DNA from: an uncultured Spirochaetales bacterium
GTDB taxonomy: Bacteria > Spirochaetota > Spirochaetia > Sphaerochaetales > Sphaerochaetaceae
Length of the DNA: 64,000 bases
Direction of reading: 5' to 3'
Assembly (NCBI GenBank): GCA_944388965.1
Contig: CALXKL010000001.1
Span: 186,001 to 250,000 of the forward strand
The notes under the pieces were generated by a model. The model did no database searches and was not told the DNA's origin. It saw nothing but the letters and a program-made list of their open reading frames with translations. Within the stretch, counting starts at the first letter, position 1, and each line of letters starts with the position of its first letter. Positions 3,538 through 20,060 of this stretch are shown one piece after another. The position numbers and the translations under genes are program-made.

Positions 3538-5478
3538 ATGATCACACAGGTCGAAGTCTACAAGGCCATGCTCCGCTCCCGCCTCTTCGAGGAGAAGGTC
3601 AGGCGGCTCTTTTCCGAAGGCGGCATGTACGGCACCACTCATCTGAACATAGGACAGGAGGCCAGCCACGTCGGGCTGTGCAATGCACTGGGCGACGAGG
3701 ACTGGATAGTCCCGACGCATCGCTGCCACGGCTTCAACGTCGCCAGGGGCAGTTCGCTCGAGGCCATGTTCGCCGAGCTGTACGGATCCAGACACGGTCT
3801 GTGCATGGGCATAGGCGGCTCGATGCACATGACCGACATTGCGACGCACGACTTCGGATCGTCCGCGGTCGTCGGCTCGTCGGTCGCGCTCGCGACCGGA
3901 ATCGCCTTCGCCTTCGCCAGACAGGGGCGCAGGGCGATAGCCGTGGCCATCCTCGGCGACGGAGCCACCAGCAGAGGCGTCGTGCACGAATGCATGAACC
4001 TGGCATCCGTATGGTCCCTTCCCGTGCTCTTCTACTGCGAGAACAACCATTACGGAATGTCGGCATCGGCCTCCAGGATGGTCTCGACGTCCGACATCGC
4101 CTCCCGCGGCGCCGGCTACGGCATCAGGTCGTTCCATGCCGATGGAAACGACTACGACGACGTGTATGACACCCTAGTGCGTGCACGCAGCCACATCCTG
4201 TCCAACGGGGAGCCTGCGTTCGTGGAGGTCGACACGTATCGGCAGTGCGGCCACAGCAAGTCCGACGAATGCGCGTACCGCACGCAGCAGGAGGAGGCCG
4301 AATGGATGCGCAGGGACCCTATCGCCCTCTATGAGCGTCGCATGGGTCTGTCGAAACAGGAGCTGCGATCCATCAGGGCGAGTGTGCAGGAAGAGGTGGA
4401 GGCCGCGCACCACGAGGCCTGGCTGCACCGGGACGAGACGCTCACGATGGACGAGCTTTCGTCTTTCGTCCTCTCGCCCTGCGAACCTGTCCTTCCCAGG
4501 ACGGGCCCGCTGCATTCCACGACCTACCGGATGGCCATAAGGGAGGCCCTGGACGAGATTCTCGCACAGGATGAGAGGGCCTGCCTGATAGGAGAGGACA
4601 TCGGCGTGTACGGAGGCTGCTTCGGCGTGACGGGAGACCTGCACGAAAGGCATCCGGACCAGGTCATCGAGACGCCCGTGTGCGAGGAGGCCTTCACGAC
4701 GATGGCTTCGGCGGCCGCCGCCATGGGGGAGCATCCGATCGTCGAGATCATGTACGGAGACTTCTGCACGCTCGCCTCGGACGGTCTGGTCAACCATGCC
4801 GCCAAGCTCCGCTACATGAGCGCCGGGCAGCTTTCCTGCCCCATGGTGCTCAGGACACCCATGGGAAGCGGGACGGGCCATGGCAGCCAGCACACCCAGT
4901 CCCTCGAGACGATGTTCCTCGCCGTCCCCGGGCTGAAGATCGTCGCCCCCTCCGATCCGTTCACGGCGAAGGCCGTGCTCAAGGCGGCTGCGGCGGATCC
5001 CGACCCCGTGCTCTTCCTGGAGCACAAGGCCCTGTATGGGAGTGCCGGAGAGGCAGGGGACGCACTGTCATACTGGCCAATCGGAAAGGCGCAGGTCCTC
5101 TCCCATGGAGACGAGCTGACGCTGATCAGCTATTCCCGTGCCACGTTGACGTGCCGCAGGGCCGTCAGCGAATGCGGCAGGAGCATAGACCACATCGACC
5201 TGGTGACGCTCAGGCCGCTGGACAGGCAGACCATCAGGGAAAGCGTCCTCAGGACCGGTCGTGTGATGATCGTCCAGGAGACGCCGGAGGAGGGTTCCGT
5301 CGGCGCCTCCGTCGCAGCCATGGTGGCATCGGACCCACAGATGGCAAGGGCGCTGAAGGCGCCTGTGTGCATAGTCTCCTCGAAGGACATGCCCGTTCCG
5401 TTCAGCCGCCCTCTGGAGCGTGACACGATGCCCACGAGCGCTCTCGTGAAGGAGCGGATACTGGCGATGCTGGGGTGA
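3538..5478 (+). CDS. Fused E1 alpha-beta 2-oxoacid dehydrogenase (thiamine pyrophosphate dependent)
   Basis: This 646-residue protein joins both E1 subunits. Residues 1 to about 320 are E1-alpha, with the thiamine pyrophosphate motif from GDGATS (140-145) to ENN (168-170). From about residue 325 it is E1-beta, with an IGEDIGVYGG segment, a CEEAFTTMASAAAAMG segment and an HSQ-type region near GHGSQHTQSLE. It should decarboxylate pyruvate, acetoin or a branched 2-oxoacid and pass the acyl unit to a lipoyl E2. No E2 or E3 gene lies next to it, so its partner is elsewhere or absent. The Shine-Dalgarno is weak. Substrate cannot be decided from the sequence. Confidence 0.88.
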   Translation: MITQVEVYKAMLRSRLFEEKVRRLFSEGGMYGTTHLNIGQEASHVGLCNALGDEDWIVPTHRCHGFNVARGSSLEAMFAELYGSRHGLCMGIGGSMHMTDIATHDFGSSAVVGSSVALATGIAFAFARQGRRAIAVAILGDGATSRGVVHECMNLASVWSLPVLFYCENNHYGMSASASRMVSTSDIASRGAGYGIRSFHADGNDYDDVYDTLVRARSHILSNGEPAFVEVDTYRQCGHSKSDECAYRTQQEEAEWMRRDPIALYERRMGLSKQELRSIRASVQEEVEAAHHEAWLHRDETLTMDELSSFVLSPCEPVLPRTGPLHSTTYRMAIREALDEILAQDERACLIGEDIGVYGGCFGVTGDLHERHPDQVIETPVCEEAFTTMASAAAAMGEHPIVEIMYGDFCTLASDGLVNHAAKLRYMSAGQLSCPMVLRTPMGSGTGHGSQHTQSLETMFLAVPGLKIVAPSDPFTAKAVLKAAAADPDPVLFLEHKALYGSAGEAGDALSYWPIGKAQVLSHGDELTLISYSRATLTCRRAVSECGRSIDHIDLVTLRPLDRQTIRESVLRTGRVMIVQETPEEGSVGASVAAMVASDPQMARALKAPVCIVSSKDMPVPFSRPLERDTMPTSALVKERILAMLG

Positions 5479-18525: not shown

Positions 18526-19981
18526 CTATTCCCTCTCCAGGGTGATGCTGCCGCCATCGGCGGAACAGTCTCCCATGAGTTCCATGAAGTTGATTCGTGA
18601 GTTCTCTCTCTTCATATGGATGGTGGTATTGCCGGATACGACGGCGCCATCTGAACCATAGCCCCCATTGTCGCTGAAGCTGTACGAGACGTTTCTCACA
18701 TGCGCATCGTCGCTCTGGGTGACGGTGAGACTGTCGAACACCTGGTCTCCTATGACATACACCGGGATGGTGAATTTTGTCTTCCCGCTGTTCATGTAAG
18801 GCGTGATGTCCTCTATGCTGAAATGGTTGTCGGTGGATGCATCCCAGACTTCGAATTCCTTTTTGTCCTCCTCGGTCACGGCTCTTATCGTGATGCTTGC
18901 GCCATCCGTCTCGTAGACGACCTTGTTGTTCTCATCCGGATTCCACCAGTAGGAGGCGAACCAGTGGTTCTTGTCGAGTTTGGGGATGTAGATGTAAAGC
19001 GTCGTTTTTCCAGTTTCATCATCAGGCCTGATTGAATACGCCCTGGCGTGGAAGCCTCCGACGCCATTGCCATCCTTGACTTCGATTGTACTGTCGTTGC
19101 CGATCGTCGAAGCCTCTGGAATCGTGATTTCGATGATATATGGATCCTGGGATTCAGGGAGGATATATGCCTGCGGGCTGGAGAGCTGCTGATTTGAGCT
19201 GAATGCCAATGTCCTTGGTGTGCGCAGGCATGTACCCCAGCCTCCGTCGGTCTCAGGAGCGACTGCTGAGTGCACGGAGTAGAGAAGGCTGTCATTCTCG
19301 TGTTCCCTCAGATCCTGTATCCTCGACTGACTGCCAAGGTGGGCGCCACTGTTCAGAAACCCGCCACGCGATCCGGTCTTGCCACCTCCTGTGGACCTTG
19401 TCCTGATGTCGAATATGCAGACCTTCGACAGGTCCGCGATGCCATAATCACCATGTTTTGAAAGATCTATCGTGTAGTATGCTTCGAAGACCTTCTTTCC
19501 ATCATTGGTCCAGTAGAGCGGGGCGGTGGAGTAGTCGATGTACATCTCCGCGTCTTTAGTGAAAGTCTTCTCTTCCAGTTCGTAGATGAGGACGTTTTCA
19601 AGTGTGCTGTCGTAGCCCGCCTGTCTTGGCGAGAAGGAGGCCGTGCCGTTTTCATCCGGCCTGATGAAGAAGGTGCCTATGTCTGTACTTGACAAAGTGC
19701 TGGAGATGGATCTTCCTGTTCCGGCGCTTTGCGCTCCATTGAATGCGACGTTGTAGAGCTTTTCCGGATCGAGCCCTGTGATCGTGATGGTGGAATCCGG
19801 GTTCATCATCCCCAGGGATCTGACTTGTGTCCCGATGGTGTCGGCCGTCAGCGTGATGTCTTTACGTTCGACTGTGATTTCACCCCCCCCCCACGTCAGG
19901 CGTCGAAGTGGTGCCGTCGCAGGAGAACAGCAGAGCCATTGCGGCAAGAGTGCAGATGATTGCAAGTCCTGTTTGTCTCAT
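18526..19981 (-). CDS. Surface lipoprotein frameshifted at a G10 tract (probably phase variable, OFF here)
   Basis: From ATG 19981 (GAGGG eight bases upstream) the frame encodes MRQTGLAIICTLAAMALLFS followed by Cys21, a lipoprotein signal, then DGTTSTPDV and a run of ten G (19883-19892) that leads straight to TGA after 34 codons. In the frame selected by a run of 9 or 12 G the message continues without interruption for about 450 codons to 18526, giving a 484-485 residue lipoprotein. The body is beta-rich, with ITLTADTIGTQV and ATFSP-like strand repeats, and unrecognised. The intact downstream frame argues against old decay. A homopolymer sequencing error is the alternative. Confidence 0.8.
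19883..19892 (-). repeat. Poly-G tract (10 G on coding strand)
   Basis: Ten consecutive C on the plus strand, read as G10 in the lipoprotein gene immediately after its signal peptide. Slipped-strand changes of one or two bases would restore or remove the reading frame. Confidence 0.95.
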
Positions 19982-20060
19982 TGAATTTCCCTCATTGCCA
20001 TTCTAGCTCCGGAATCCGTTCAGAGGAAGACATCCACCGCCTTCGTCCGCCGTCTTTCTC

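Follow-up and report, generated by a model that had tools for sequence, protein, structure and literature searches.

A ten-G tract between the signal peptide and the body of a candidate phase-variable lipoprotein gene in the Sphaerochaetaceae

Structure and homology of the locus

The window, the whole 64,000-nucleotide stretch of DNA analysed here, carries on its minus strand a lipoprotein gene whose signal peptide and body lie in different reading frames, with ten consecutive G between them (Table 1). The upstream frame runs from an ATG at 19981–19979 through 33 sense codons to a TGA at 19882–19880. Before the tract it encodes MRQTGLAIICTLAAMALLFSC, lipobox Cys included; up to the TGA it encodes MRQTGLAIICTLAAMALLFSCDGTTSTPDVGGG, the last part of which comes from the ten G. 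By inspection, MRQTGLAIICTLAAMALLFSC has the positive N-region, hydrophobic core and lipobox Cys of a lipoprotein, and all aligned homologues share this layout. The body frame ends in a TAG at 18528–18526. No TTGAC–Gn–TA promoter with a tract in its spacer was found upstream of the window gene.

The initial annotation had described an ATG with a ribosome-binding site, a signal peptide ending at a lipobox Cys, a run of exactly ten G and a next frame open for about 450 codons. All of these are present in the minus-strand sequence, with the positions and lengths given in Table 1. The TGA that it placed after 34 codons is also present, but follows 33 sense codons; the count of 34 includes the stop.

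Table 1. Features of the split lipoprotein gene (positions within the window)
Feature	Position	Strand	Remarks
Shine-Dalgarno-like GAGGG	19989..19993	minus	7 nt before ATG; read directly from the letters
Upstream frame: ATG, signal peptide, lipobox Cys, linker, TGA (33 aa)	19880..19981	minus	Homologue profile positions 6–23
Lipoprotein signal peptide MRQTGLAIICTLAAMALLFS and Cys21 (LFS/C lipobox)	19919..19981	minus	All aligned homologues likewise carry an N-terminal signal that ends in SC
Poly-G tract, ten G; putative slippage site	19883..19892	minus	One of the genome's 9 tracts of at least nine G
Lipoprotein body, other frame, 452 codons and TAG	18526..19884	minus	Without a Pfam or NCBIfam family

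When seven intact homologues are combined into a profile, it aligns with the signal-peptide frame at positions 6–23 and with the body frame at positions 33–479. The first match is weak (6 bits), as expected for 20 residues, and the second reaches 246 bits. Because the matches fall at consecutive positions, the two frames are parts of one gene. With no stop anywhere in the body frame, both frames together make up one intact gene. The tract is located in a non-conserved linker of about ten positions between the two matches, and extra glycines in this post-lipobox linker are probably harmless. A reading of the tract as part of a glycine-rich linker was rejected; GGG accounts for 13% of nearby Gly codons, and GGG-GGG pairs number 0 in the nine genes checked.

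When the body is used as a single query, its homologues are confined to this genus. The profile search extends the family to 7 of the 22 genera of the taxonomic family. Comparison of the locus in related genomes, as suggested in the initial annotation, found the homologues to be intact lipoproteins; those of sister species have a signal peptide ending in SC. The nearest homologue (genome G005) is 37% identical and open over 524 codons. Its coding region does not contain a tract, and seven G are found instead in a promoter-like spacer. Synteny between the window gene and this homologue is not conserved over the stretch compared. Neither the body nor six homologues matched Pfam or NCBIfam above the cut-off. 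The matches of the body to reovirus and FEZ models in Pfam (E 0.06–0.16) are below the cut-off and were taken as chance. A search of viral contigs found nothing, and the structure predicted for the body from its single sequence has a mean pLDDT of 36, with a hint of strands at most.

It is very unlikely that the frameshift is fixed and the window gene a recent pseudogene. The gene is out of frame in the sole genome of its species examined, the distribution of its family is accessory, and the GC3 of the body is below that of neighbouring genes, all of which would suit decay. Set against this, the 452 codons are free of stops, the profile match is full-length, and the codon-position bias of the body is in the same direction as in other genes. 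The layout also recurs in other lipoprotein genes, several of them in frame.

Taxonomic placement

None of the 28 genomes searched from the family to which the window belongs contains FlaA, the flagellar sheath protein (PF04620). Thirteen other families of the class have it, and the FlaA-positive pattern of the Treponema lineage does not hold here. The genome thus belongs to the class Spirochaetia and, within it, to a FlaA-less family, most likely Sphaerochaetaceae; the lack of FlaA fits the non-motile Sphaerochaetaceae. The comparison with Treponema made in the initial annotation stands as a functional analogy and not as a placement, because the genome belongs to a family without FlaA.

Excess of long G tracts

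Apart from the ten-G tract, no G or C run in the window reaches a length of seven. Runs of four, five and six number 249, 47 and 2, and are followed by the single 10-mer. Background run frequency drops about five-fold per added base, whereas the counts of long runs in the whole genome rise: there are 8 G runs of seven, 13 of eight, 5 of nine and 4 of ten (counted from the listed places). Runs of at least eight number 22, against 2–3 expected (p 1e-11 or lower). Runs of at least nine number 9 (0.3–1 expected), and those of at least ten number 4 (<0.35 expected). The tract is not a product of chance, because the run-length spectrum exceeds the five-fold-per-base background. A dinucleotide shuffle (mean 3.2) counts overlapping 8-mers and ignores both codon structure and the observed decay, and the run-length spectrum was used in its place. 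The tract is thus longer than chance allows and, between signal peptide and body, is placed where a change in its length would alter expression.

The length of ten is a single consensus from one assembly of one species, and indel errors occur most often in homopolymers of this length. An assembly or sequencing slip would mean that the true tract is in frame and the gene simply ON, leaving a tract-bearing lipoprotein gene at the locus all the same. This is unlikely. The tracts of eight, nine and ten G in this genome are found at promoters and envelope genes and are not scattered, and other tract-bearing genes read in frame. A length off by one would, moreover, leave the phase-variation reading of the locus standing.

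Tracts of the same layout in other genes

Three other genes of the same genome have a tract after the signal peptide. One encodes a barrel protein resembling an outer-membrane protein (C1:5196; Pfam match below the cut-off), with nine G in frame. The others encode lipoproteins, one with eight G in frame (C13:15152) and one with an out-of-frame run of eight C on its coding strand (C11:47540). In sister species, tracts after signal peptides are in frame in two genes of G009 and out of frame in one gene each of G008 and G012.

Tract length differs between orthologues. The C13 lipoprotein and its G012 homologue (38% identity) have tracts at equivalent sites, with eight G in frame in the former and nine G out of frame in the latter; the G014 homologue is without a tract. 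In the close pair G010 and G012, shared tracts have nine G in both genomes. The G010 homologue (L187, C39:1-1729) of the G012 lipoprotein with the tract lies at a contig end, where unrelated sequence interrupts it a short way ahead of the tract site.

Within the family of the window gene, 6 of the 15 members in the genus have a run of at least nine G, either inside the gene or no further than about 125 nt upstream, against about 0.1 expected from roughly one tract per 345 kb. These are the window gene, two members in G005 (eleven G in a promoter spacer; ten G at a mid-body frameshift), two tandem copies in G014 with nine and ten G upstream, and one member in G010 with nine G about 40 nt upstream.

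Placement of tracts across the genus

Tracts of at least nine G number 97 in the genus and are present in 15 of 16 genomes, very unevenly distributed among them. They cluster around lipoprotein starts, behind signal peptides, in promoter spacers of the form TTGAC...Gn...TA, and inside glycan and methyltransferase genes. For 29 of the 97 tracts, a TTGAC is present no more than 24 nt upstream, compared with 13 of 551 control runs of four or five G. TA follows immediately in 54 of the 97, compared with 27 of the 551. In the promoter-type layout, Gn fills the spacer between a -35 box and a TAnnnT-type -10 box, and the commonest total spacing is 16. Of 51 genera searched within the family and elsewhere in the class, 7 contain the corresponding gapped pattern, with most matches in this genus; the reversed control pattern has one match in 76 genomes. 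A lipobox-type start is present within 150 nt of 35 of the 97 tracts and of 4% of control positions. This count omits the window gene, whose LFSC lipobox falls outside the filter.

Slippage at the tract by RNA polymerase or the ribosome, with constant low production of full-length protein and no change to the DNA, is an exceedingly improbable account of the locus. A ten-base homopolymer can in principle allow such slippage, as a matter of general knowledge. It would, however, leave unexplained both the tracts in promoter spacers and 5' regions and the length differences between orthologues.

Phase variation of the window gene

The window gene is very likely a phase-variable lipoprotein gene, switched by slippage in its poly-G tract and OFF in the assembly. 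The initial annotation had proposed this, and it is supported from two sides: a single lipoprotein gene in two frames has intact homologues, and long G tracts in the genus outnumber expectation, occupy non-random places and differ in length between orthologues.

Replication slippage (slipped-strand mispairing) would change the length of the tract, which lies in a tolerant linker, after the lipobox Cys and ahead of the conserved body. Lengths that are multiples of three would place the signal peptide in frame with the 452-codon body, and the product would be a lipidated envelope protein of some 480 residues. At other lengths, ten among them, translation would stop after 33 codons and leave a leader and no lipoprotein. 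The joining and parting of export signal and body would be reversible, and cells in a population would differ in carrying the lipoprotein. We infer that slippage occurs within the species of the window. Judging by the kinds of gene that are usually phase-variable, the protein may sit in the outer membrane or at the surface, and such heterogeneity may be of advantage in avoiding host immunity, phage or competitors.

In Treponema pallidum, poly-G tracts of 7–11 G are associated with tprE/F/G/I/J/L and tp0126, where promoter tract length sets the -35/-10 spacing and affects transcription; poly-Gs inside ORFs are tabulated as well (PMC7864442). The likeness extends to a spirochaete host, poly-G tracts and envelope genes, and the promoter layout is that of many loci in the present genus. 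The tpr tracts that have been studied affect transcription; the window tract, in contrast, is located in the coding frame after the lipobox. The window also comes from another, FlaA-less family, and its body belongs to no curated family. In Neisseria, poly-G in the ORF (e.g., hmbR, hpuA) switches a surface protein on or off by frame (PMC3786947). The coding-frame switch is alike, but the proteins and phylum are unrelated, and switching has been demonstrated in Neisseria, while here we infer it. In Bordetella pertussis, a genome-scale set of homopolymer tracts is linked to phase variation (PMC1891110); the scale is similar and the phylum and genes differ. The window locus would be a new instance of a known mechanism, because poly-G switching is documented in T. 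pallidum, chiefly at promoters, and in coding regions of Neisseria. A full-text literature search for Sphaerochaeta and phase variation, with many subscription journals outside its scope, found no report.

The genus-wide tract set is more interesting than the window locus. This FlaA-less, non-motile genus probably has a large poly-G phasome, with at most about 15 tracts of at least nine G per genome. In it, one lipoprotein family would be switched through promoter spacing, the frame after the lipobox and the frame in mid-body, and methyltransferase and glycan genes would be included. Pathogens, the syphilis treponemes among them, have been the subject of much work on poly-G phase variation. 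If non-motile spirochaetes have the same poly-G toolkit, it would be a strategy of spirochaetes in general and not a disease device alone. The tracts also define a concrete set of genes whose switch state could be read from existing sequencing reads, and provide the example of a single lipoprotein family with switches at different positions in different members.

Other tract-bearing loci

In G000, a DNA methyltransferase-like gene (L020, C3:17594-20602) is split by nine G at 1501–1509, out of frame (...KPVDLYKWLFTRFAP / RILDTHLGSGSSRIAADELGFDF...). It is named by its DPPY motif, is without a Pfam match and adjoins another methyltransferase-like gene. Similar tract-bearing genes are present in G005 (L033, two tracts) and G008 (L035). 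L020 is a candidate for phase-variable methylation, judged by its motif. In the same genome, the C-terminal PPYAV..PA motif of a hexapeptide acyltransferase is broken by ten G at 5135–5144 (L161, C17:1-19000). This gene is close to a nucleotide-sugar gene and is a candidate for phase-variable glycan modification.

Upstream of three lipoprotein genes in the window's own genome (L150, L145 and L151, on C3, C2 and C4), TTGAC...G8...TA is present with a -35/-10 distance of about 16. Tracts of 9–12 G abut the lipoprotein start codon, or lie within about 10 nt of it, at L064, L087 and L032 (G005, G001 and G011), and could act on translation start.

At four contig ends of G001 (L088, L090, L091 and L092), a shared sequence of about 40 bases is located a few bases before nine-G tracts and is probably the end of a mobile element. 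The flank of L090 is present in G012 (L106) without this sequence, and the element may insert beside poly-G promoters.

Two genomes from other families of the class, G044 and G055, contain 1041 and 240 overlapping nine-G matches, respectively, and G055 has runs of 20 or more G. An assembly effect, or repeats with a different biology, could account for this abundance.
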